Shown one piece after another: positions 495 through 12,293 of a stretch of DNA of 64,000 nucleotides. How positions within the stretch are numbered: position 1 is the first letter of the stretch; each line of letters starts with the position of its first letter. This DNA comes from Arthrobacter sp. Soil762 (GTDB lineage: Bacteria > Actinomycetota > Actinomycetes > Actinomycetales > Micrococcaceae): positions 62,841 through 126,840 of the forward strand of contig NZ_LMSG01000001.1 in the NCBI RefSeq assembly GCF_001428335.1, in the 5' to 3' direction. The notes under the pieces were generated by a model. It had not been told where the DNA came from. It worked only from the letters and a program-made list of their open reading frames with translations, and did no database searches. A program made the position numbers and the translations under genes.

Positions 495-1121
495 TTAGTG
501 CGCCAGCAGCGTCTCGAGCGGTTCTCCCGCCGCGATCCGTGCCAGCAGCTCCGGCTCGGCCGCATCGGAGTCGAGCGCCTGCTCCAGGACAGCTGGCGCT
601 TCCTGCTGGGTCAGCACAATCACGCCGTTATCGTCGCCCAGCACCCAGTCGCCGGGGGCAACTTCCGCGCCCCCGCATGTCACGGGAACGTTGACCGCAG
701 ACTCCGTGCCGTGCAGGCGTTTGGTGGTGAGGCATGACGTGCCGCGGGCGAAGACCGGCAGGCCGGTGCTCCGCAGCTCCAGCAGGTCCGTTGCCACCCC
801 GTCCACCACGATGCCGGCGGCGCCCTGGGCCTTGGCGGCTGCGGCCGTCACTGCGCCGACGGGGGCATGGCGGCGATCGCCGTCCATGTCCACCACGAGC
901 ACCGCTCCGGGGTACAGCTCCAGCATCGCCCGGTTCATGGCGATCGCGTCATAGCCGACGATCCGGACGGTGACCGCAGGCCCGGCCACCTTCACGCCGT
1001 CCAGCAGCGACTGGATGGCCGGGTCAACGAATCCGTCTTCGAGGAAATGCCCGATGGTGGGGTAGCTGACGGCCTCCAGGCCAGCCAGGACCTGCGTGCC
1101 TGCGAGGACCTTGCTGCTCAC
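495..1121 (-). CDS. RraA-like / HMG-CHA aldolase family protein
   Basis: A 208-residue protein of the RraA superfamily, which includes the ribonuclease regulator RraA and class II pyruvate aldolases (4-hydroxy-4-methyl-2-oxoglutarate and 4-carboxy-4-hydroxy-2-oxoadipate aldolases). The glycine-rich core GAAGIVVDG around residue 100 matches the family. Where aldolases normally show a DG-x-x-R-D pattern this protein reads DGVATD: the metal-ligand Asp is kept but the Arg that holds the pyruvate carboxylate is Thr. It may therefore not be a standard aldolase. It is the last gene of a tight operon, since its ATG overlaps the ridA-like stop by four bases. Linkage to catabolic genes argues against an RNase-regulator role. 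Confidence 0.85.
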   Translation of the reverse strand: MSSKVLAGTQVLAGLEAVSYPTIGHFLEDGFVDPAIQSLLDGVKVAGPAVTVRIVGYDAIAMNRAMLELYPGAVLVVDMDGDRRHAPVGAVTAAAAKAQGAAGIVVDGVATDLLELRSTGLPVFARGTSCLTTKRLHGTESAVNVPVTCGGAEVAPGDWVLGDDNGVIVLTQQEAPAVLEQALDSDAAEPELLARIAAGEPLETLLAH

Positions 1122-1528
1122 TGTCCCGCCTCAGCCAGGACCGCAACACATTCGATTTCCAGGGAGACTCCCCAGAGGCTGACACAGACGGACGTGCGTG
1201 CCGGCTTTGCGTCGCCGAAGAACTCCGCGTAGACGCGGTTGTACTCCTCCAGCTGCCCCGGGTCGGTGAGGTAGGTGTTGACTTTGACCACATGGGCCAG
1301 GCCGGATCCGGCGGCCTCCAGCACTGCGGTGAGGTTCCGGAGTGTCTGGCGGACCTGTTCCTCGAACGTTTCCGGCTGGTTGTCCAGCCCCGTGATGGCG
1401 GGGATCTGACCGGCCGTGAAGACGAACCCGTTGGCCACCACTGCCTGGGAGAAAGGCCCGACGGCGGCCGCCCCGCCGGGGATCTCAGCGATCCGCAGGA
1501 TGGATCTGGCGGGGGAGGCTGCCGTCAC
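1118..1528 (-). CDS. RidA family (YjgF/UK114) imine/enamine deaminase-like protein
   Basis: A 136-residue protein with the RidA hallmarks VFTAGQIP near residue 35, HVVKVNTYLTD in the middle, the substrate-binding arginine in KPARTSV, and the terminal EIECVA segment with its conserved Glu. RidA proteins form trimers that hydrolyse reactive enamine/imine intermediates to ketones and ammonia. Several subfamilies sit in catabolic operons and act on pathway intermediates. The gene overlaps both neighbours by four bases (MFS upstream, RraA-like downstream), so the three are almost surely co-translated. A pathway-specific deaminase role is inferred from that context. Confidence 0.9.
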   Translation of the reverse strand: MTAASPARSILRIAEIPGGAAAVGPFSQAVVANGFVFTAGQIPAITGLDNQPETFEEQVRQTLRNLTAVLEAAGSGLAHVVKVNTYLTDPGQLEEYNRVYAEFFGDAKPARTSVCVSLWGVSLEIECVAVLAEAGQ

Positions 1529-2877
1529 TTCGCCGCCGCCTCAACGGGGGACTCGTCGACGGCGTCGATGTTGCCGTAGCGGGTTTCCGTCAGGATCACG
1601 AGCGCCGCGAGCGAGACCAGGGAGGCTCCCATGATGTACCAGGCGATGGACGAACTCTGGTGCGTGACGCCCAGGAGCCAGGTGGTGATGAACGGTGTCG
1701 CGGCGCTGCCCAGGAGTCCTGAGAGCATGTACGCGACCGACAGGCCCGAGTAGCGGACCTTTGAACCGAACAGCTCGGCCAGGAACGTGGCGATGGGGCC
1801 GTAGTTGGCGGCGAACGCGGTCATCATGGCCAGGTAGGCGACGAAGAGGAGCGCCACAGACTTGGTGTCCATCATCCAGAACATCGGGAAGGCAAGGGCT
1901 GCCTCGGCTGCGACACCCGCGAAAATGATGGGTTTACGGCCGTATTTGTCGGAGAGGCGTCCGAAGAACGGGATGAGGAAGAGGCACAGGGCGCACGCGG
2001 CGAGGACCACCCACAGCATCAGGCTCTCGGAGTGGCCGAGTTCCTTCTTGCCGTAGGAGACGCCGGACGCCACCAGGAGCGTGAACGTGCTGCCCGTAGA
2101 GAGGGTGGCAACGCCGCCCAGGATGACCTGCTTCCAGTACTTGGCCATGAGGGCCGCGAACGGCAGCTTGGCTTTGGCGCCGGCATCCTTGACCGCCTGG
2201 AATGAGGGGGTCTCTTCAATGTGGAGCCGGATGTAGATGCCCACGGCCACCAGGAGCGCGGAGGCGAGGAACGGGATGCGCCAGCCCCAGCTGAGCAGTG
2301 CCTCGGTGCTGACGCTTGAGGCGACGATCAGGAAGGCCACGTTGGCGATCAGTGTTCCGGCGGGCACTCCCACCTGGACCAGGGAACCGTAGAACCCGCG
2401 CTGTGAGGCGGGTGCATGTTCCACTGTCATCAGCACGGCCCCGCCCCACTCGCCGCCCAGGGCCAGGCCCTGGATGACGCGGAGGAAGAGGAGGAGCACC
2501 GGGGCCATGATGCCGATGCTGTTGTAGTCCGGCAGCAGTCCGATGGCGAACGTGGCGGCGCCCATGGTCAGGAGCGAGATCAGGAGCATGGACTTGCGTC
2601 CCAGCCTGTCCCCGAAGTGGCCGAAGATGATGGCACCCACCATGCGGGCGATGTAGGCCGAGGCGAACGTGCCGAATGCGAGCATGGTGCCCACCAGCGG
2701 GTCGAAGCTGGGGAAGAAGATTTTGTTGAAGACGAGCGCGGATGCTGTTCCGAAAACGAAGAGGTCGTACCACTCGACGGTGGTGCCGATGACGCTGGCG
2801 AGGGCGATCTTGCGCATTTTTGTGAGGTCCAGCCGTGCCGTAGCAGCGGCGGTGGTGGTATTTACCATGTTGGCCAT
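1525..2877 (-). CDS. MFS transporter, metabolite:H+ symporter (MHS) type
   Basis: A 450-residue membrane protein with about 12 transmembrane helices. The features EWYDLFVFG near the first helix, GDRLGRK in the loop between helices 2 and 3, and the LRVIQGLALGGEWGGA stretch are typical of the MHS branch (ShiA, ProP, citrate and dicarboxylate carriers). These import organic acids or betaines with protons. The start has a good ribosome site (TGGAGAA) seven bases upstream. It heads the operon MFS - RidA - RraA-like. A CRP-like box lies upstream at 2936-2951. It is related to the second MHS gene at 4877-6211, and both probably serve the same catabolic island. Confidence 0.9.
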   Translation of the reverse strand: MANMVNTTTAAATARLDLTKMRKIALASVIGTTVEWYDLFVFGTASALVFNKIFFPSFDPLVGTMLAFGTFASAYIARMVGAIIFGHFGDRLGRKSMLLISLLTMGAATFAIGLLPDYNSIGIMAPVLLLFLRVIQGLALGGEWGGAVLMTVEHAPASQRGFYGSLVQVGVPAGTLIANVAFLIVASSVSTEALLSWGWRIPFLASALLVAVGIYIRLHIEETPSFQAVKDAGAKAKLPFAALMAKYWKQVILGGVATLSTGSTFTLLVASGVSYGKKELGHSESLMLWVVLAACALCLFLIPFFGRLSDKYGRKPIIFAGVAAEAALAFPMFWMMDTKSVALLFVAYLAMMTAFAANYGPIATFLAELFGSKVRYSGLSVAYMLSGLLGSAATPFITTWLLGVTHQSSSIAWYIMGASLVSLAALVILTETRYGNIDAVDESPVEAAAK

Positions 2878-2935
2878 CAGTTCTCCAGATGGGGTGCGGG
2901 GACGATTGTCCGGTGCAGGTAGTTACCAACTATTC

Positions 2936-2951
2936 TGTGTCATCCATCACA
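2936..2951. promoter_or_regulatory. CRP/GlxR-like operator candidate
   Basis: The 16-mer TGTGTCATCCATCACA fits the CRP-family pattern TGTGA-N6-TCACA with one mismatch in the left half. It lies 59 bases before the start of the MHS transporter operon in an AT-richer intergenic stretch. A shorter inverted repeat, TGTGAGTTCACA, lies nearby at 2990-3001. A regulatory role is inferred, not shown. Confidence 0.4.
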
Positions 2952-3035
2952 GTTCAATGGCAAAAAATCCACCAGAAAACGCCGATAAATGTGAGTTCAC
3001 ACAAAACACCCCTCAGGGCATTAACGGGCCGCTAC

Positions 3036-3067
3036 GCGCAGGCCACCACCAGTCGGGTGGCCTGCGC
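3036..3067 (-). terminator. Hairpin terminator
   Basis: Twelve-base arms GCGCAGGCCACC and GGTGGCCTGCGC around an 8-base loop, starting 12 bases after the stop of the 117-residue minus-strand gene. No T-run follows on the minus strand. Its position suggests it ends that transcript and shields the MHS promoter region. Confidence 0.55.
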
Positions 3068-3079
3068 CGGATCAGTGCG

Positions 3080-3433
3080 TCACACCTGGGCAGAAAGTTC
3101 GTGCCGGGTCAGGCTCAGGTACACCTTTCCGTCTTCGACCCGGTTGATGGCATCAGCAGCCGCATAGGAGTCGCTGGCCCAGAATCCGCGGGCATCGATT
3201 TTGATGTAGCCCGAATGGAACAACCGCCGGGCCATCAGCTCCGGTACTTTCGGTTCCCTGCCGAAGACAGCACTCAGCCCGAGGTTGATCAAATCCTGTT
3301 CGGAAGCCGTGGCGGCTTCTTCGAACACTTCTGCCTTAATGTTGGGCGGAACGATGCGCTCAACGGCACCGATATCATCGCCCGACGCATCCACAACGCG
3401 CATTCCCTTGGACACGGATTCCAAGACGTCCAC
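3080..3433 (-). CDS. Hypothetical protein, 117 residues
   Basis: Starts with GTG behind a strong ribosome site (GGAGGA, six bases away). The N-terminal half, with GMRVVDASGDDIGAVERIV, resembles the short beta-barrel segments of PRC-barrel or DUF2171-like proteins, where a surface-exposed strand pair begins with 'MxVxDxxGxxIG'. The C-terminal half contains ARGFWASDSYAAADAINRVEDGKV. No signal peptide, membrane segment or catalytic motif is visible. It lies between the left-arm transporter and the PucR regulator on the same strand, but has its own ribosome site and terminator, so a link to the catabolic island is uncertain. Confidence 0.7.
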   Translation of the reverse strand: MDVLESVSKGMRVVDASGDDIGAVERIVPPNIKAEVFEEAATASEQDLINLGLSAVFGREPKVPELMARRLFHSGYIKIDARGFWASDSYAAADAINRVEDGKVYLSLTRHELSAQV

Positions 3434-3533
3434 GATCGTCCTCCTCCACTCAACTTCATTACGGCACCGTTGCGCCCCACGGTCAAGGGGATGTGGCTTG
3501 GGCAGGCGCTGCCAATAGTGGCGCTCGCAGACG

Positions 3534-4718
3534 TCAGGCCCACGCCACTACCAGCCTGGCAACCTGGGCGGGAACGGCGAGGTCGATCCCGGTCAGGTCC
3601 TGGAACCGGTTGAGCCGGTTGAGAATGGTGTTGCGGTGGCAGAAGAGGGCCTGGGCAGTGGTGGTGATGTTGCCTGTACACAGGAAATGGCGCACCGTCT
3701 CCTCCAGGCGTTCGCGTTCCCCGCCGCGGCACGGTGAGAGTGCCGCGTCCAGATCCGCCCACAGGTCCAGGCCGGCGTCCTGGAGCCGCTGCTTGGCCAG
3801 CCGGGCCCACGCCGCGGTGGCCGTCAGGGGTCCACGGTCCGATGGGTGGAGCAGCAGGGCCAGCCGCTCAGCGGTCCGGGCGGCCGACGGGAGGCCGCGC
3901 AGCCCGGAGAAGCTCTCCACATAGCCGCAGGGGATTCCGGCGATGCCGGCCGGGATGAACGGCCCCGCAGGTTGCCGTCCGCCGGCCGCTGGTTTACCCA
4001 ATGCCCAGAAGACGTACGTGCTGCCGCCGAACTCGTGGACAAAAAGCCGTTGCGAGGACTGGGGGCCCTGGGCAAACGCGCGGAGTGTGGCGGCTGCCTC
4101 GCCGCTGGCGGCCACAATCGAATAGTGGGCGTCAGGATCGGTGACCAGGGCGGCGGATGCCTGGCTGATGGTGTCCGCCGAGAGTTCCGATTTGCTGAAC
4201 AGCCGGGCGATGAATTCGCGCCGGATGTTGGATTCCTCCTGCGCCATGCGGACCCGTTCGGCCGAATAGCTCGAGTGTGTGTGCGCGGCGAATTCGTCCA
4301 CCACCCGCCACACCCGGTCCACCCGGGACGTGAGCAGCGCCGCGTCCTGGGGCTCGGAGATCTGCAGCAGGTCCTCCCACAGGATGCTGAAATCAAGCCG
4401 GACAGCCGAGGTGAGGGCTTCGGGTGAGATTCCGGCGCGGGCCCTTTTCGCGCCCAGCTCCAACGAGAACCGCATCAGTGAGTCTTGGTCGCCGTTGCGT
4501 CCGGACCGCTGCAGTTCCTTGTCGCGGAGCCCGTCCACCAGCCGGTGGAACGTTTCGCGCGCCGTATCCCGTAGTTCCGCCATCTCCACGGTGCTGCCGG
4601 AGTATTCGGGAATCTCCTGCACCCTCGCCAAAAACAGCTCGGTCAGTTCGTCAACGCGGCCATGCAGCCGCTCCACCAACTCTCCCCAACGGGCGCCATA
4701 ATCCTGATCATTGTGCAT
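3534..4718 (-). CDS. PucR/CdaR-type transcriptional regulator
   Basis: About 394 residues. The C-terminal 60 residues hold the PucR-type helix-turn-helix: HFLCTGNITTTAQALFCHRN followed by TILNRLNRFQDLTG. The N-terminal region (residues 1-160) is helical and resembles the RsbRD-like domain found in many PucR-family proteins. These regulators usually control purine, amino-acid or organic-acid catabolism from a divergent position. Here it is divergent from the transporter - ThDP - ALDH - hydrolase operon, which is its likely target. A GTG at 4724 is possible, but the TAGAAT complementary to 4725-4730 followed by six bases and ATG at 4718 suggests a leaderless start at 4718. Confidence 0.85.
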   Translation of the reverse strand: MHNDQDYGARWGELVERLHGRVDELTELFLARVQEIPEYSGSTVEMAELRDTARETFHRLVDGLRDKELQRSGRNGDQDSLMRFSLELGAKRARAGISPEALTSAVRLDFSILWEDLLQISEPQDAALLTSRVDRVWRVVDEFAAHTHSSYSAERVRMAQEESNIRREFIARLFSKSELSADTISQASAALVTDPDAHYSIVAASGEAAATLRAFAQGPQSSQRLFVHEFGGSTYVFWALGKPAAGGRQPAGPFIPAGIAGIPCGYVESFSGLRGLPSAARTAERLALLLHPSDRGPLTATAAWARLAKQRLQDAGLDLWADLDAALSPCRGGERERLEETVRHFLCTGNITTTAQALFCHRNTILNRLNRFQDLTGIDLAVPAQVARLVVAWA

Positions 4719-4802
4719 TTCCACATTCTAAGACCAATATCCCGTGGTGCATTGCTAGTTTTTTTGGGTGAACCTACTGGAAGAATGGAGTGAGGCCAAC
4801 GG

Positions 4803-4816
4803 GTGAGCCACATCAC
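4803..4816. promoter_or_regulatory. CRP/GlxR-like operator candidate
   Basis: GTGAGCCACATCAC matches the CRP-family half sites GTGA-N6-TCAC exactly. It lies 60 bases before the second MHS transporter start, in the region divergent from the PucR gene. Together with the box at 2936-2951 it suggests cAMP-receptor or GlxR control of both arms of the island. This is inferred from pattern and position only. Confidence 0.45.
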
Positions 4817-4876
4817 GCGGCAAGCGGCGAAAAGGGCGTGTTCGCAGCACCCGGTCCGAAACTATCTGGAGTAATC

Positions 4877-6211
4877 ATGGCAATCAACGACAGTACAGCG
4901 ACGGGCGTGGACCAGCAGGTCCCGCGCATCGCGGATGAGAGTGTCACCCGCAAGGTGGCCGTGGCAGCCCTGGTTGGCACAGCCCTCGAGTGGTACGACT
5001 TCTTCCTGTTCACCACCGCCGCGGCACTGGTGTTCAATGCCCAGTACTTCGTTTCCGACGACCCATTTGTGGCCGCCATGAGCTCGTTCGCCACGCTCGC
5101 TGTCGGCTTCGTGGCGCGCCCCATCGGCGGCTTCATCTTCGGCTCGCTCGGGGACAAGGTGGGCCGGAAAAAGATCCTGATGGTCACCATCGTGGGGATC
5201 GGGGTTGTGACCGGCCTGATCGGGCTCCTGCCGAACTACATGACCATCGGCGTCGCAGCTCCCATCATCCTGGTGGCGCTGCGCATCCTACAGGGCCTGG
5301 CAGTAGGCGGCGAGTGGAGCGGTGCGGTGATTATCGCCGTCGAAAACGCCCCCGTTGCCAAACGTGCACGCTACGCGGCCCTGCCGCAGATCGGTTCCCC
5401 GATCGGCACCATCCTTTCCTCCGGCGGCTTCTTCGGAATGCTGTACCTGGTGGGCCAGACCAATTTTGACGCCTGGGGCTGGCGGATCCCGTTCGTGGCG
5501 GCCATCCCGCTGCTGGCCATCTCTCTCTGGATCCGCAGCCGCCTCAGTGAATCCCCCGAATTCGAAGCCCTCATGGAAGCCGGCGAGACCGAACATGCGC
5601 CCATCCGTGGTGTCCTGAAAAACAGCTGGCGGCAGATCCTGGTGGGCATGTGCTCGGCGCTGCTTGGTATCGGCGGCTTCTACCTCATCACCAGCTTTGT
5701 GGTCTTCTACGGCACCAAGGTCCTCAAGATGCCCTACGAAACCCTTTTATTGGGCTCGCTCCTCGCCGCGGTCTTCGAGATCTTCGTCCTCATCTGGGCC
5801 GGACGCATGGGCGAGAAGTACGGTGCCAGCAAGGTGATCCTTTGGGGCGGCGTCGCTTCCGCGCTTGTGGCCGTCCCGGTCTTCCTGGCCATTAACACCG
5901 CGAACCCGGTGCTGGTCATCGGCGCCATGATCATCGGCGTGGCCACTCTGTCCATTCCCTACGCCGTCTCGGGCACAGCCCTGACGGCCCTTTTCGCCAC
6001 CCGTGTCCGCTACACCGGAGTAGCCATCACCTCCAATAGCGCCGGCGTTATTTCCGGTTTTATTCCACTCATCGCCACGGCCCTCGTGGCTGCCAGTGGC
6101 AACTCATTCTGGCCCGGGGCCATCATCCTGCTGGTCGTGTCGGTCCTGACCGCACTCTCAGGCCTGGTCCTGCCCGCCCTCAGTATCGAAGAAGAAGGTA
6201 TGAAGCATTGA
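4877..6211 (+). CDS. MFS transporter, MHS type (second copy)
   Basis: About 444 residues with 12 predicted membrane segments. It shows LEWYDFFLF in the first helix, GDKVGRKK in the loop between helices 2 and 3, and the LRILQGLAVGGEWSGA motif of MHS family carriers. An in-frame ATG exists at 4790, but ATG 4877 has a proper ribosome site (GGAG, five bases away) and begins where the family normally does. It is the first gene of a five-gene operon and its stop overlaps the next start by two bases. It probably imports the acid or amide substrate of the downstream enzymes. Confidence 0.9.
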   Translation: MAINDSTATGVDQQVPRIADESVTRKVAVAALVGTALEWYDFFLFTTAAALVFNAQYFVSDDPFVAAMSSFATLAVGFVARPIGGFIFGSLGDKVGRKKILMVTIVGIGVVTGLIGLLPNYMTIGVAAPIILVALRILQGLAVGGEWSGAVIIAVENAPVAKRARYAALPQIGSPIGTILSSGGFFGMLYLVGQTNFDAWGWRIPFVAAIPLLAISLWIRSRLSESPEFEALMEAGETEHAPIRGVLKNSWRQILVGMCSALLGIGGFYLITSFVVFYGTKVLKMPYETLLLGSLLAAVFEIFVLIWAGRMGEKYGASKVILWGGVASALVAVPVFLAINTANPVLVIGAMIIGVATLSIPYAVSGTALTALFATRVRYTGVAITSNSAGVISGFIPLIATALVAASGNSFWPGAIILLVVSVLTALSGLVLPALSIEEEGMKH

Positions 6212-7827
6212 GCACAACAACCACCGCCGGCCACCTGATCGTGGCCCAGCTCGAACGTGCCGGCGTCAAGCGGGTCTACGGCGTCCCCGGCGAAAGCTTC
6301 CTGGATGTCCTGGACGGTCTGCACGGCTCCTCCATTGAAATCGTGGTGACCAGGCATGAAGGCGGCGCCGGATTCATGGCCCTCGCCGAGGGCCGGCTCA
6401 CCGAGCTGCCCGGCGTGGCCATGGTGACCCGCGGCCCCGGTGCGGCCAACGCATTCATCGCCATCCACACCGCACACCAGGACGCCACCCCCATGATCCT
6501 CTTCGTGGGCCTCATCCCCGTGGCGGACCGCGGCCGCGAATCCTTCCAGGAATTCGACATCAACGCCTGGTTCGGCAGCACCGCCAAGAAAGTGGTAACG
6601 CTCGACGACGCCGCGTCCGCCGCCCGCGTCGTGGACGACGCCATCTTCACCGCAATGAGCGGACGCCCCGGACCGGTGGTGATCGGGCTTCCCGAAGACG
6701 TCCTGGTCCACGCGATTGAATCCGGGACTGTGGAACCGCGCAAGGTCTCCCGCCCGGCCCCGGCCGCGCCGGACCTGGCCGAACTGGAAGCCCGCCTCGC
6801 CGCCGCGAGCAAGCCCCTCATCGTGGTGGGCGGCGAAGGCTGGACCCAGGAATCCGGCGAAGCGCTGGCTGGCTGGGCTGCTCGTCACGGCGTCCCCGTC
6901 CTCGCGGATTTCCGCGCCTACGACGCAGTTCCGCACCACTCCGACGCCTACGCCGGCTTCCTCGGCTACGGCCGCAGCGACGCCAATGCGGCCCGGCTTG
7001 ACGCGGTGGACCTGATTGTCTTCCTCGGCTGCGTCCGCGGCGACGTTCTCTCCGACGGCTATACCCGCGGCCTCGACGCCCACACCGTAGTGGTCAACGC
7101 AGACGCCGACCTCCTGGGCCACTTCGGCCGGATGGACCAGCACATCACCGCAGACGTCACCGCATTTTCCATGGCGCTGGCAGGCATGGATTCCGCCGTG
7201 CGGCCGGCCGCCGGCTGGTTCGCCGACGCCCGTGCCGACTACCTCAAGTTTTCCTCCGCCCAGCCCGACGGGGGGACGGGTGTGGACCTCGGCGTTGTGA
7301 TGGAAATCCTCAAGCAGGAAATGGCCGACGACGCAGTCCTCACTTTCGGCGCCGGGAACCACGCCCTGTGGCCGGCCCGCTACCTGCAGCACAACAGCGC
7401 CAACTCCCTGGCGGCGCCCCGGAACGGCGCCATGGGCATGGGCATTCCGGCAGCGGTGGCCGCCTCGCTGGCCTACCCGGGCCGGCAGGTCATTTCGGTG
7501 GCCGGTGACGGCTGCTTCATGATGAACGGCCAGGAAATCGCCACTGCCATGGGCCACGGAGCGAAGTTCATCGTGCTGGTGGTGGACAACGGCATCTTTG
7601 CCACCATCCGCGAACACCAGGAAGCCCACTACCCGGGCCGCCCCTCCGGCACTCACATGACCAACCCGGACTTCGCTGCACTGGCCCGCTCTTACGGCGG
7701 CTACGGCGAGCGCATTGAGAAGGCGGAGGACTTCGCCGGTGCGTTCCGCCGCGCCGTCGAATCCGGTGTGCCCGCCGTGCTGCACCTGCCGCAGGATCCC
7801 ACCACCCGTTCCCCCAAGAGCAACTGA
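6208..7827 (+). CDS. Thiamine diphosphate-dependent enzyme (acetolactate synthase-like / 2-oxo acid decarboxylase)
   Basis: A 539-residue protein with the three-domain ThDP architecture. The cofactor-activating Glu is in TRHEGGAGFMA (about residue 50), and the ThDP/Mg motif GDGCF...DNG is at about residues 432-462. Family members carboligate pyruvate or decarboxylate 2-oxo acids such as benzoylformate. An IHTAHQD segment replaces the usual IATAYMD of acetolactate synthases, so biosynthesis of branched amino acids is unlikely. It starts at TTG 6208, overlapping the transporter stop, behind AAGAAGG. The aldehyde dehydrogenase follows directly, as expected if this enzyme makes an aldehyde from a 2-oxo acid. 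That pairing is inference. Confidence 0.88.
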   Translation: MSTTTTAGHLIVAQLERAGVKRVYGVPGESFLDVLDGLHGSSIEIVVTRHEGGAGFMALAEGRLTELPGVAMVTRGPGAANAFIAIHTAHQDATPMILFVGLIPVADRGRESFQEFDINAWFGSTAKKVVTLDDAASAARVVDDAIFTAMSGRPGPVVIGLPEDVLVHAIESGTVEPRKVSRPAPAAPDLAELEARLAAASKPLIVVGGEGWTQESGEALAGWAARHGVPVLADFRAYDAVPHHSDAYAGFLGYGRSDANAARLDAVDLIVFLGCVRGDVLSDGYTRGLDAHTVVVNADADLLGHFGRMDQHITADVTAFSMALAGMDSAVRPAAGWFADARADYLKFSSAQPDGGTGVDLGVVMEILKQEMADDAVLTFGAGNHALWPARYLQHNSANSLAAPRNGAMGMGIPAAVAASLAYPGRQVISVAGDGCFMMNGQEIATAMGHGAKFIVLVVDNGIFATIREHQEAHYPGRPSGTHMTNPDFAALARSYGGYGERIEKAEDFAGAFRRAVESGVPAVLHLPQDPTTRSPKSN

Positions 7828-7839
7828 CTGGAGCCCCAC

Positions 7840-9246
7840 GTGATCACGCTCAAGAACATCATCAACGGCCAGGCCGTTGACTCCCCGGCCAGCCTGCCCT
7901 TCTTCGACCCGGCAACGGGACTCCAGATCGGCACCGCCCCGGACAGCGACACGGCCGCCGTCGACCTCGCCTTCCAGGCCGCGCAGCAGGCATTCAAGAG
8001 CTACAAGCGCACAACGCCGGGCGAACGCCAGGCCATGCTGCTCAAGCTCGCAGACCTCATCGAAGCCAACGTGGACCGCCTGCTTGACGCCGAAGTGGCG
8101 TGCACCGGAAAGCCCCGTGCCGCGACCCGAGAGCTGGAGATCCTGCGGGGCGCCGACCAGCTGCGCTTCTTCGCCGGCGCCTGCCGGGTGGTATCCGGCA
8201 CGGCGTCCACGGAGTACGTCGAGGGCTTCACTTCCTCCATCCGGCGGGAACCGCTGGGCGTGGTCGCACAGATCACCCCGTGGAACTATCCCTTCATGAT
8301 GGCCATCTGGAAGATCGGCCCGGCCCTCGCCGCCGGCAACACCCTGGTCCTCAAACCGGCAGACACCACGCCGTGGTCCACCGTGGTGCTGGGCGAACTG
8401 GCCCAGGAAGTGTTTCCGGCCGGCGTCGTGAACATCGTCTGCGGCGGCCGCGACGCCGGTGCCGCCATGGTTGAGCACGAGATCCCGGAAATGGTCTCCA
8501 TCACCGGATCCACCCGCGCCGGGGCACAGGTCATGTCCGCCGCGGCCAAAACGCTCAAGGACGTCCACCTCGAGCTCGGCGGCAAGGCACCCGCGATCGT
8601 CTTCGCGGACGTGGATATCGCCCGGACCGCACAGGAGATCGCGCTGAGCGCCTTCTTCAACGCAGGCCAGGACTGCACCGCTGTCACCCGCGTGCTGGTG
8701 GAACAGTCCATCCACACCGAGTTCGCCGCGGCGCTCGGAGCCGCGGCGGCCGCACTCAGTGTAGGCGGCGACGACGCGGACCTCGGCCCGCTGAACAGTG
8801 CCGCCCAGCTTGAGCGCGTGGAGGGCTTTATGACCCGCCTACCGGCCAACGCCACCGTCATTTCCGGCGGCAAGCGCACCGGCACCGGCTACTACTTCGA
8901 GCCCACCGTGATCGACGGCGTCTTCCAGAGCGACGAGGTGGTGTGCGACGAGATCTTCGGTCCCGTGCTCACCGTGCAGCCCTTCGCCACGGAGGAAGAG
9001 GCCATCGAGCTGGCCAACGGCACCAAATACGCGCTGGCTTCCAGCGTCTGGTCCGAGAACCATGGCGTGGTCACCCGGGTATCCATGGAGCTGGATTTCG
9101 GCGCAGTCTGGATCAACTGCCACCAGGTGATCCCGGCCGAGGCGCCGCACGGCGGCTTCAAGCAGTCCGGCACCGGCAAGGACCTCTCCGTCTTCGGCCT
9201 GGAGGACTACACCCGCATCAAGTCCGTCACCACCTCACACCGGTAG
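7840..9246 (+). CDS. NAD(P)-dependent aldehyde dehydrogenase (aminobutyraldehyde dehydrogenase-like)
   Basis: A 468-residue ALDH with all main elements: PWNYP (oxyanion region, about residue 148), the general base Glu in LELGGKAP (about 246), the catalytic Cys in NAGQDC (about 280), and EIFGPV near residue 370. The overall look resembles gamma-aminobutyraldehyde/betaine aldehyde dehydrogenases, which act on small amino- or hydroxy-aldehydes. It starts with GTG behind TGGAG. It lies 12 bases after the ThDP enzyme and 15 before the amidohydrolase. It probably oxidises the aldehyde product of the ThDP enzyme to a carboxylate. Confidence 0.92.
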   Translation: MITLKNIINGQAVDSPASLPFFDPATGLQIGTAPDSDTAAVDLAFQAAQQAFKSYKRTTPGERQAMLLKLADLIEANVDRLLDAEVACTGKPRAATRELEILRGADQLRFFAGACRVVSGTASTEYVEGFTSSIRREPLGVVAQITPWNYPFMMAIWKIGPALAAGNTLVLKPADTTPWSTVVLGELAQEVFPAGVVNIVCGGRDAGAAMVEHEIPEMVSITGSTRAGAQVMSAAAKTLKDVHLELGGKAPAIVFADVDIARTAQEIALSAFFNAGQDCTAVTRVLVEQSIHTEFAAALGAAAAALSVGGDDADLGPLNSAAQLERVEGFMTRLPANATVISGGKRTGTGYYFEPTVIDGVFQSDEVVCDEIFGPVLTVQPFATEEEAIELANGTKYALASSVWSENHGVVTRVSMELDFGAVWINCHQVIPAEAPHGGFKQSGTGKDLSVFGLEDYTRIKSVTTSHR

Positions 9247-9261
9247 GCCAGGCATCCGATC

Positions 9262-11031
9262 ATGAAACTCGACCTCCTGCTGCGCAACGCGGACATCATC
9301 ACGATGGACGCGGACCGTCCGCGCGCCACCGCGCTGGGGGTGTGGCAGGGACGCATCGTGGGCTTTGACGGCGACCTCGACGGGCTGGCCGCGGCCGAGG
9401 TCCGGGACCTGGACGGCGCCACAGTGACGCCGGGCTTCATCGACGCCCACTGCCACACCGCCTGGTTCGGCCTCGGCCTGGCGGAACTGGACGTGTCCGG
9501 TGCCCGCGGGCTGCACCAGCTGTACGCGCTGCTGGAAGCGGAAACAGCCGTGGACCCCGGAGCGGCCGGGTCCGGCGACGGCGGTGGCTGGCTGATGGCC
9601 ACCGGCTTCAGCCAGCACCACCACGGCGGGGCTTTCCCCGACATCGCGGTGCTGGACCGGATCACGGGCGGCCGTCCGCTGTTCATCCGGCACAACTCCG
9701 GGCATATGGCGGTGGTCAACACCGCCGCGCTGCGGCTGGCAGGTGCGCAATCGCCGTCGTTCCCGGATCCCGACGGCGGCGTGATAGTCCGCGACGCCGG
9801 CGGCAGGCCCACAGGCCTCCTCCAGGAAACGGCGCAACAGCTGATCCAGGAGCTCATCCTGCCGTACTCCCTCGGCGCCCTGGAAGATGCGCTGGACCGC
9901 GCCACCCTGCACTATGCCTCGGAGGGCATCACCAGTTTTACGGAAGCGGGCATCGGCGGCGGCTGGATCGGCCATAGCCCCGTTGAATTCGCGGCATACC
10001 AGCGCGCCCTCGCCAACGGCAGGCTGCATGCCCGGGCGCAGGTCATGCCGGTGCTGGACGTCCTTCATCCCCTTGAGGGGCACAGTTCGGGGACTGCCGG
10101 GGTTCCCGGGACTGCCGGGGTTCCCGGGCCGGAAGGCCTGGACCTGGGCATGGCGAGCGGTTTCGGCAACGATTTCCTCTCCCTCGGGCCCGCCAAGGTT
10201 TTCCTCGACGGCTCGCTGCTGGGGGAGACAGCGGCCGTCAGCCAGGATTTCTGCAGCCACGGCCAGCGTGACAACACGGGCAACCGGGGCTACTTCCAGG
10301 CCGATCCGGACCAGCTCAGGGACAGGATTCAGGCCGCCTACGCCGCTGGCTGGGCCATCGCCGCCCATGCCATCGGCGACCGTGCGGTGGACCTTGCCAT
10401 TGGCATCCTGGCGGACTGCACGGCCAAATACGGCCACAGAGCGCTGCCGAACCGGATCGAACACGCCTCCATGGTCAGGCCCGACCAGCTGGCCGCCCTG
10501 GCAGCGGCAGGCATCGCCGTGACCCCGCAGGCAAGCTTCTTCCGGGACGGCGGCGACGGCATGACGGAGTCCCTCGGCACCGCGCGGCTGGGCTGGGCCT
10601 ACCGTGCGGCGACGTTCCTGGCGGCCGGCGTGACGCTGGCCGGCAGCTCGGACCGGCCCGTGGCCGACGGCAACGTACTCAAGGGAATGCAGGCCTTTGT
10701 GGATCGCCGGATGGCCTCGGGCGGCGTGTTCGGCAATCCGGACGAACGGCTCACCCCGTTCCAGGCCCTCGCCGCCTACACCACCGGGGCGGCCGCAGCC
10801 ACCGGCGCTTCGGCCACTAAGGGGTCATTGACACCCGGCAAACTGGCGGACTTCACCATCCTGTCCGGATCGCCCTTGACCACCGGCAACATTGCGGACC
10901 TCCGGGTCCTGGGCACCGCCGTCGGCGGCTCCTTCACTTACCAGACGGATGCACCGCCAGCCGTGCCAACGATTCACCATCCACTGACTACTACCGTTCA
11001 GACCACCACCGTTCATAGGGGAACATCATGA
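9262..11031 (+). CDS. Metal-dependent amidohydrolase, YtcJ-like
   Basis: A 589-residue member of the amidohydrolase superfamily (Amidohydro_3/YtcJ type). Visible metal-site elements are DAHCHT near residue 60, VFLDGSLLGETA in the middle, AHAIGDRAVD and RIEHASM with the later His ligands, and GSSDRPVADG with the terminal Asp. Such enzymes hydrolyse amide, formamide or cyclic amide bonds with Zn or another divalent metal. Between the first and second metal motifs is a six-residue unit, GTAGVP, present twice because of an 18-base tandem repeat at 10090-10125. The stop overlaps the following hydrolase start by four bases. Confidence 0.88.
   Translation: MKLDLLLRNADIITMDADRPRATALGVWQGRIVGFDGDLDGLAAAEVRDLDGATVTPGFIDAHCHTAWFGLGLAELDVSGARGLHQLYALLEAETAVDPGAAGSGDGGGWLMATGFSQHHHGGAFPDIAVLDRITGGRPLFIRHNSGHMAVVNTAALRLAGAQSPSFPDPDGGVIVRDAGGRPTGLLQETAQQLIQELILPYSLGALEDALDRATLHYASEGITSFTEAGIGGGWIGHSPVEFAAYQRALANGRLHARAQVMPVLDVLHPLEGHSSGTAGVPGTAGVPGPEGLDLGMASGFGNDFLSLGPAKVFLDGSLLGETAAVSQDFCSHGQRDNTGNRGYFQADPDQLRDRIQAAYAAGWAIAAHAIGDRAVDLAIGILADCTAKYGHRALPNRIEHASMVRPDQLAALAAAGIAVTPQASFFRDGGDGMTESLGTARLGWAYRAATFLAAGVTLAGSSDRPVADGNVLKGMQAFVDRRMASGGVFGNPDERLTPFQALAAYTTGAAAATGASATKGSLTPGKLADFTILSGSPLTTGNIADLRVLGTAVGGSFTYQTDAPPAVPTIHHPLTTTVQTTTVHRGTS
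10090..10125. repeat. 18-base tandem duplication inside the amidohydrolase gene
   Basis: Two perfect head-to-tail copies of GGGACTGCCGGGGTTCCC. The unit length is divisible by three and encodes GTAGVP twice in a Gly/Pro-rich loop, so the frame is kept. It looks like a recent slippage duplication in a tolerant surface loop. Confidence 0.9.
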
Positions 11032-12293
11032 CCACAACACCCACCTTCACCGCCCCCGACGCCGCCTTCGTTGAAGACTTCCGCGTTATGAGCCAGTTCG
11101 GCGCCACCGAAAACGGCGGTGTGGACCGCCAGGCGGCTACCGCCGCGGACGGCGAGCAGCGCCGCTGGCTGACTGGCCTGCTGGAGGCCCGCGGGTTCAC
11201 CGTGAAGTTCGACCGCGCCGGCAACCAGTGGGGCCTCTTCGAGGCCGTCCCGGGGGCACCGTTTGTCGTAGTGGGTTCGCACATGGATTCGCAGCCGACG
11301 GCGGGCCGCTACGACGGCGCGTTCGGCGTCCTGGCGGCGGCGCACGCAGCGTTCCGGCTGGTGGAGAACTGGGCCGCCGGCGGCGGCGCTTCCGGGAAGC
11401 CGAAGTTCAACATCGCCGTGGTGAACTGGTTCAACGAGGAAGGTTCCCGCTTCAAGCCGTCCATGATGGGCTCCTCCGTCTACACTGGGAAGCTCGCCCT
11501 TGAAACAGCCCTCAACACCACGGACACCCAGGGGATCAGTGTCCGAGAGGCGCTGGACGGGGTTGGCTGTCGGGGGGACTACGGCGGACCTACGGCCGCT
11601 TACTGCGCCGAAATCCACATCGAGCAGGGCCGCAGCATGGAGCGCGATGGCATCACCATCGGCCTGGTGCAGTCCAGCTGGGCGGCCAACAAGTACGAGT
11701 TTGTGGTCCACGGCGAACAGGCCCACACCGGCTCCACCGTGATCGCGGACAGCAAGGACGCCCTCCTCGGCGCCGCCATGCTGGTGGTGGCCGCCCGCGA
11801 ACTGGCAGACAGGTTCCCCGGCGTGCTGCACACCTCGGTGGGTGAGCTGACCGTCTACCCCAACTCGCCGGTGGTGGTCCCGTCCAGGGTCAACCTCCTG
11901 CTGGACCTGCGCAGCGCGGACGAGTCCGTCCTGGCCGAGGCCGATGCGCTGCTCCACGAACGGATCCCCGCGATTGAACGCGCCGCCAACATCAGCGTGG
12001 AACGGAACCACTCACACTCCTGGCCGGTCACCCGGTACCAGACCGAAGGCGTGGAGCTCGCCGCCAAGGTGGCCGCGGACCTGGGCCTGTCCAGCAAGCA
12101 GGTCATGACCCTAGCCGGGCACGATTCAATCAACATGAAGGACCTGGTGCCCACCGTCATGCTGTTCGTCCCGAGCGTGGACGGAATCTCCCACAACGAA
12201 CACGAATACACCACGGACCAGGACATCGTGGCCGGACTCGCCATGCTCACCGAGGTAGTCAACCGTCTCTGCAACGGGGTCCTGGAGGACTAG
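11028..12293 (+). CDS. M20 family Zn hydrolase, N-carbamoyl-L-amino acid hydrolase / allantoate amidohydrolase type
   Basis: A 421-residue enzyme of the hydantoinase/carbamoylase group. Metal and substrate motifs are visible: GSHMDSQPTAGRYDGAFG (about residues 82-100), NWFNEEGSRF with the catalytic Glu pair (about 134), AEIHIEQG (about 196), HTGST in the dimerisation lid, and GHDSINM near the C-terminus. The family cleaves ureido groups from N-carbamoyl amino acids, allantoate or ureidoglycolate, releasing ammonia and CO2. It is the last gene of the right-arm operon and overlaps the amidohydrolase by four bases. The pair suggests stepwise opening of a cyclic or acyl amide and then removal of a carbamoyl group. 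Confidence 0.9.
   Translation: MTTTPTFTAPDAAFVEDFRVMSQFGATENGGVDRQAATAADGEQRRWLTGLLEARGFTVKFDRAGNQWGLFEAVPGAPFVVVGSHMDSQPTAGRYDGAFGVLAAAHAAFRLVENWAAGGGASGKPKFNIAVVNWFNEEGSRFKPSMMGSSVYTGKLALETALNTTDTQGISVREALDGVGCRGDYGGPTAAYCAEIHIEQGRSMERDGITIGLVQSSWAANKYEFVVHGEQAHTGSTVIADSKDALLGAAMLVVAARELADRFPGVLHTSVGELTVYPNSPVVVPSRVNLLLDLRSADESVLAEADALLHERIPAIERAANISVERNHSHSWPVTRYQTEGVELAAKVAADLGLSSKQVMTLAGHDSINMKDLVPTVMLFVPSVDGISHNEHEYTTDQDIVAGLAMLTEVVNRLCNGVLED

Follow-up and report, generated by a model that had tools for sequence, protein, structure and literature searches.

What do nine catabolic and regulatory genes of a soil Arthrobacter break down, and do the two arms in which they lie serve a single compound or two? 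The genes occupy positions 495 to 12,293 of the window, a 64,000-nucleotide stretch of the 4.53 Mb genome of Arthrobacter sp. Soil762 (contig NZ_LMSG01000001.1, positions 62,841 to 126,840), together with one DUF2171-like gene. The enzyme families are known; the gene set is apparently undescribed. The first-pass annotation had named no described pathway with exactly this set, and among the papers searched there was likewise no assigned pathway with it. The reading that we favour, with moderate confidence, is that the whole island serves a single inducible pathway, which breaks down a small carboxylic acid of the N-acylated or ureido type.

Layout of the island

The left arm (MHS1-RidA-RraA) is read from the minus strand and the right arm (MHS2-ThDP-ALDH-YtcJ-M20) from the plus strand. 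Neighbouring genes overlap by 4 bp in the left arm (1118-1121 and 1525-1528) and in the right arm (6208-6211 and 11028-11031), and the other gaps in the right arm are 12 and 15 bp, so the arms look like two tight operons. All the genes listed by the first-pass annotation lie where it had placed them and match their family profiles (Table 1). It had also put a PucR-type regulator between two MHS-led operons, which is right as to position, but the regulator gene runs on the minus strand like the left arm. The DUF2171-like gene is not in the conserved set and is probably a strain-level insertion outside the pathway, because most related loci leave no space for it. A 75% homologue of its product is encoded at the far end of the island of another genome (G145; L137:512-913), adjoining a GlcD-like FAD oxidase and a succinate-semialdehyde dehydrogenase (SSADH). 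Directly upstream of the window (G000:C1:50000-63500), translations read by eye include an arabinose-utilisation-like kinase, epimerase and isomerase, and a cluster resembling that for 4-hydroxyphenylacetate meta-cleavage.

Table 1. Features of the island, in window coordinates
Feature	Position	Strand	Evidence or remark
RraA-like protein (PF03737), with VVDGxxTD in place of the RD motif of aldolases	495..1121	-	PF03737 1.7e-33
RidA-type imine/enamine deaminase	1118..1528	-	PF01042 2.2e-28; has the catalytic Arg (in PART) and Glu
MHS1, metabolite:H+ symporter family carrier	1525..2877	-	MHS/MFS profile match
Candidate operator TGTGTGAACTCACA 5' of MHS1	2990..3003	-	palindrome
DUF2171-like small protein	3080..3433	-	between PucR and MHS1
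PucR/CdaR-type transcriptional regulator	3534..4724	-	start GTG 4724 or ATG 4718
MHS2, second MHS-type carrier	4877..6211	+	ATG 4877; ORF open from 4790
ThDP-dependent enzyme, PRK08199 family, acetolactate-synthase-like	6208..7827	+	NF006052/PRK08199
NAD(P)-dependent aldehyde dehydrogenase (ALDH), aminobutyraldehyde-DH-like (PRK13473)	7840..9246	+	nearest NF010000
YtcJ-like amidohydrolase	9262..11031	+	Amidohydro_3 PF07969, 6e-79
M20 hydantoinase/carbamoylase-family amidohydrolase	11028..12293	+	TIGR01879, NF006772

One pathway or two?

Do the two arms travel together? An M20-centred search gave named loci, with 80 matches listed, in which all island proteins were compared by tblastn; 19 of the 80 loci listed carry the full nine-gene set in an unchanged order. 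In a sample of 150 genus genomes, homologues of RraA, M20, ThDP and YtcJ were searched for and the results combined by distance (15 kb). Every one of the 31 RraA homologues has an M20, ThDP or YtcJ homologue within 15 kb (29 have M20 nearby, 28 have ThDP). Random placement of a gene would give this in well under 2% of cases; the clustering of the island genes is far from chance. A ThDP homologue also stands within 15 kb of 30 of the 33 M20 places and of 31 of the 34 YtcJ places (at least 75% identity). Close homologues of all four are present in 26 of the 150 genomes, and in 4 of the 33 genomes with M20 the right arm is present with no RraA detected nearby. Both arms are thus kept together in Arthrobacter and Paenarthrobacter, and the single-pathway idea of the first-pass annotation, which had made such co-conservation its own test, comes through it.

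Elsewhere the core is found as one run. MHS1-RidA-RraA-ThDP-M20 are contiguous in Streptomonospora (L085), Agromyces (L086), Agrococcus (L089), Nocardiopsis (L091) and Leucobacter (L109, L113), followed in the first four by an SSADH-like ALDH. A single pathway is the best reading of both arms because they are co-conserved and their core is fused elsewhere. Streptomyces loci (L078, L107, L108, L110) carry some of these genes, beside PucR-type regulators that differ from that of the island. The MHS1-RraA pair persists in Proteobacteria, with M20, at 66-70% identity for MHS1 and 46-60% for RraA; identities are 40% for ThDP, 36% for M20, 37% for ALDH, 66% for MHS1 and 60% for RraA on Cupriavidus pBB1, and 37% for M20, 70% for MHS1, 46% for RraA and 39% for RidA in Methylobacterium. 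ThDP is missing near M20 in several distant loci (L064, L072, L084, L100, L105), and one cluster (L071) has a TRAP carrier in place of MHS1. TRAP carriers are typical of carboxylates.

Two related loci have further neighbours or copies. On pBB1 (L132:15745-18319), the island version adjoins genes for a peptide-type ABC transporter, for a C45 acyltransferase/hydrolase and for the ATP-grasp protein PRK06524 ('biotin carboxylase'), the last of which is also encoded close to M20 in L067 and L139. In Arthrobacter sp. ok362 (L044:12665-14522+), a divergent copy of the left arm lies downstream, with three tandem RidA-like matches (60, 64 and 50%).

What, then, of YtcJ and MHS2? Both are absent from the single-operon versions, and the pair occurs without ThDP, RidA or RraA in seven loci (L073-L075, L077, L080, L081, L096); they are a separable add-on module. 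Could the island hold two co-travelling pathways? The core MHS1-RidA-RraA-ThDP-M20-ALDH would then handle one compound and MHS2-YtcJ, together with PucR, a second, and a common M20 product or regulator would have brought them together in the Arthrobacter lineage. This is unlikely, though it deserves to be taken seriously. The missing genes of the single-operon versions fit it, as do the loci in which MHS2-YtcJ-PucR keeps company with a second M20-type deacylase (PRK06837; L073-L075, L077, L081) or with M20 (L080, L096), and no operator is common to the two promoter regions. Against it, the ThDP gene is flanked by those of MHS2 and YtcJ in Arthrobacter and likewise in L097, L099, L101, L102, L104, L106, L111 and L118, which argues that ThDP and M20 are common to both modules, and YtcJ is close to ThDP across the genus.

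The regulator has a C-terminal HTH (PF13556, HTH_30; 3.3e-16) and an RsbRD_N-like N-terminus; a profile search gave no match to the PucR N-domain. The arms of the palindrome upstream of MHS1 are kept in about 20 of 24 loci, and TGTGTGAACTCACA is the sole exact copy in the genome. It was not found in the PucR/MHS2 intergenic region, and a search of both promoter regions for an operator common to the two arms gave none. The palindrome is a candidate operator of the left arm only, and PucR is likely to act locally, on the right arm at least.

What do the enzymes do?

Over 567 aligned positions, YtcJ shares 44% identity with the amidohydrolase encoded on plasmid p2MP of Arthrobacter sp. 68b, and the metal-site motifs are kept. 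This is its nearest relative in an understood setting, adjoining a flavin monooxygenase, a flavin reductase and an SSADH. The p2MP cluster reportedly degrades pyridine through an N-formyl enamine. Does the whole island then act as a lower pathway on what ring cleavage leaves of N-heterocycles, with YtcJ as a PyrC-type amidohydrolase that deformylates an N-formyl enamide, RidA on the enamine and ALDH on the semialdehyde? The YtcJ match runs nearly end to end, and the p2MP SSADH shares 64% identity with the ALDH that relatives have in the island cluster, but neither the island nor its conserved neighbours include an oxygenase or monooxygenase, and the p2MP RidA, at only 29% identity, is without the catalytic Arg; the idea is improbable. 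A ring cleavage of the KpiC type was also considered for YtcJ and set aside: KpiC, which makes 3-(N-formyl)-formiminopyruvate, belongs to Amidohydro_1 (PMC7356986), and nothing ties it to the island.

The ThDP enzyme scores 592 bits against NF006052/PRK08199 (cut-off 539) and so belongs to this family. It has the ThDP-activating Glu (in TRHEGGAG), and its nearest solved structures are acetolactate synthases. Relatives recur beside ALDHs, FAD-dependent or alpha-hydroxyacid oxidases, redox enzymes of 2-hydroxyacids and 2-oxoacids, and hydantoinase A/B. These neighbours fit the decarboxylation of a 2-oxo acid, and the enzyme is likely a 2-oxo-acid decarboxylase, which supports the earlier proposal of decarboxylation followed by aldehyde oxidation. 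The ALDH comes nearest to NF010000 (aminobutyraldehyde DH) at 598 bits, just under the cut-off of 615, and some relatives swap it for an SSADH-like enzyme. Against TIGR00883, MHS1 and MHS2 score 405 and 362 bits, below the cut-off of 443.

RidA carries the conserved Arg (R105) and Glu (E120) of an imine deaminase in its PART and LEIE motifs, and the Arg is present in at least 95% of 39 sequences. Imine hydrolysis of the RidA type needs this Arg (PMC4433059). The active-site residues are intact and fit imine hydrolysis; the role of RidA may be only protective, since some clusters (L071, L132) do without it. What of the RraA-like protein? Aligned with the HMG/CHA aldolase 3NOJ, it is gap-free in the motif stretch and has Thr in the column of the catalytic Arg that precedes the metal Asp. 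The motif VDGxxTD occurs in 39 of 41 homologues and RD in none. In the Pseudomonas putida F1 aldolase the catalytic Arg is R123, and R123K cuts kcat about 180-fold (PMC5065237). A canonical aldolase role is therefore unlikely for the clade, this identity was rejected, and the carbon-carbon cleavage that the first-pass annotation had allowed for is doubtful for the RraA-like protein.

Which group does M20 remove? The protein belongs to the hydantoinase/carbamoylase family TIGR01879 (269.9-270.1 bits, cut-off 204) and scores 435 bits against NF006772 (cut-off 424). The metal ligands and catalytic Glu (His85, Asp96, Glu137, Glu138, His197, His389) are invariant in 80 of 80 homologues, as is Arg295, the equivalent of R322 in beta-alanine synthase. 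At the position of Asn309 of that enzyme, 79 of the 80 have Val and one has Ile. N309 and R322 bind the substrate in beta-alanine synthase; of the Asn and Arg looked for as marks of an N-carbamoyl amino acid or allantoate hydrolase, the 80 homologues keep the Arg and lack the Asn. Val at this place is a trait of the clade and calls for caution in naming a substrate from the M20 family. In view of this and of the pyridine-cluster relative of YtcJ, the group removed may be carbamoyl, formyl or another acyl; a carbamoyl or ureido group, as first proposed, is one candidate among several.

The surroundings of related M20 proteins offer a hint. In L139 and L112 the neighbours of a paralogous M20 (62-65%) are an amino-acid permease, an amidase of the nitrilase type and an L-amino-acid oxidase/monooxygenase (3WE0, E 2e-239), and in Pseudoclavibacter (L092, L094, L095, L098) a 66-67% M20 shares an operon with DDAH-like, agmatinase-like and ThDP genes. 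By analogy with these neighbours, the M20 group is suggested to serve amino-acid-derived amides or ureides. The first two clusters (L139 being G122:C1:622000-640000) also hold the PRK06524 ATP-grasp protein and a beta-lactamase-like protein, and that of L112 directly adjoins the island; the Pseudoclavibacter operon also has a D-2-hydroxyacid dehydrogenase and an amino-acid ABC transporter. Around the only other hydantoinase/carbamoylase-type M20 of the host (51-52%; G000:C18:132000-148000) are two regulators, one LysR-like and one PucR-like, an MHS-like carrier, an ALDH, and genes resembling those of an amidase and an aminotransferase; this is possibly a second, different amide island.

Is M20 an allantoate or ureidoglycolate amidohydrolase, with RidA on the following imine and the ThDP enzyme on glyoxylate? 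NCBIfam places M20 in 'allantoate amidohydrolase' subfamilies, MHS1-RraA-RidA and M20 adjoin a ureidoglycine aminohydrolase and a ureidoglycolate lyase in Methylobacterium nodulans, and the allantoinase/Gcl operon of the host has no M20 (allantoicase was undetected in the host genome by a search run without a positive control, a negative that is given no weight), but such a ureide pathway is very improbable, since the M20 clade lacks the Asn309 equivalent and scores 175 bits as AllC against a cut-off of 598, allantoinase occurs in 137 of the 150 genus genomes against 33 for the island M20 (at least 75% identity), two genomes (G024, G044) have M20 without allantoinase, and a true glyoxylate carboligase lies elsewhere (C1:565266) with allantoinase. 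The island ThDP enzyme scores 125.8 bits against the glyoxylate carboligase profile TIGR01504 (cut-off 711). Allantoin was rejected as the main reading because the allantoinase/Gcl operon is separate and far more widespread than the island.

A proposed route

How would a single pathway for an N-acylated or ureido-type acid run? MHS1, with MHS2 in Arthrobacter, would import the compound. YtcJ and M20 would act on amide or ureide bonds as hydrolases, with YtcJ probably forming or supplying the substrate of M20; hydrolysis by M20 would yield an amine, enamine or imine. RidA would hydrolyse the imine to a 2-oxo acid, the ThDP enzyme would decarboxylate this acid, and ALDH would oxidise the aldehyde, perhaps a C4 compound, as the enzyme is aminobutyraldehyde-DH-like and relatives use an SSADH-like one. 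The step of the RraA-like protein is probably something other than canonical pyruvate-forming aldol cleavage. Imine hydrolysis by RidA would mean that no aminotransferase or oxidase is required in the cluster, and no aminotransferase is conserved there. The order of the steps and the substrate go beyond what gene content, conservation and active-site residues give directly.

The island is present in about one in six of the sampled genus genomes, and reduced forms occur in Streptomyces, Nocardiopsis, Leucobacter, Cupriavidus, Paraburkholderia and Methylobacterium. This wide spread points to a common nitrogen compound of soil or plants whose breakdown is unmapped. We suggest, tentatively, an undescribed cross-phylum route for such an N-acyl or ureido acid, in which the Arg-less RraA clade would carry out a new reaction and M20 with RidA would replace the usual aminotransferase or oxidase in the formation of a 2-oxo acid. 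Such a pathway would give functions to Arg-less RraA proteins and Val-type M20 amidohydrolases.

Comparison with known systems

The island shares pieces with several known systems. With the HMG/CHA (RraA-type) aldolases it has the fold family in common and the Asp of the RD motif, whereas the catalytic Arg of these enzymes is Thr in the island clade. Allantoin/allantoate degradation likewise combines a PucR-type regulator, an AllC-related M20 and a ThDP enzyme, but the allantoin operon of the genus lies elsewhere in the genome and is far commoner than the island. Hydantoin and N-carbamoyl-amino-acid utilisation uses the same M20 family, of which the island enzyme keeps the carboxylate Arg, the catalytic Glu and the ligands of the dinuclear metal site; that pathway has Asn309 where the island M20 has Val, and lacks the RidA, RraA, ThDP and ALDH of the island, which in turn has no hydantoinase or racemase. 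The 2-ketoarginine (AruI/AruH) route also pairs a ThDP enzyme with an aminobutyraldehyde-type dehydrogenase, and the ThDP gene of the Pseudoclavibacter operon is AruI-like. The island enzyme is of the PRK08199 family and not AruI (208 bits against a cut-off of 500), and the island has no transaminase or guanidino hydrolase. The pyr cluster of p2MP, unlike the island, starts with a flavin monooxygenase, has no MHS, RraA, ThDP or M20 carbamoylase annotated, and holds a RidA that is not orthologous to that of the island; what the two have in common is a YtcJ-related amidohydrolase, an SSADH close to the ALDH of related islands, and a RidA-family gene and PucR-like stretches nearby.
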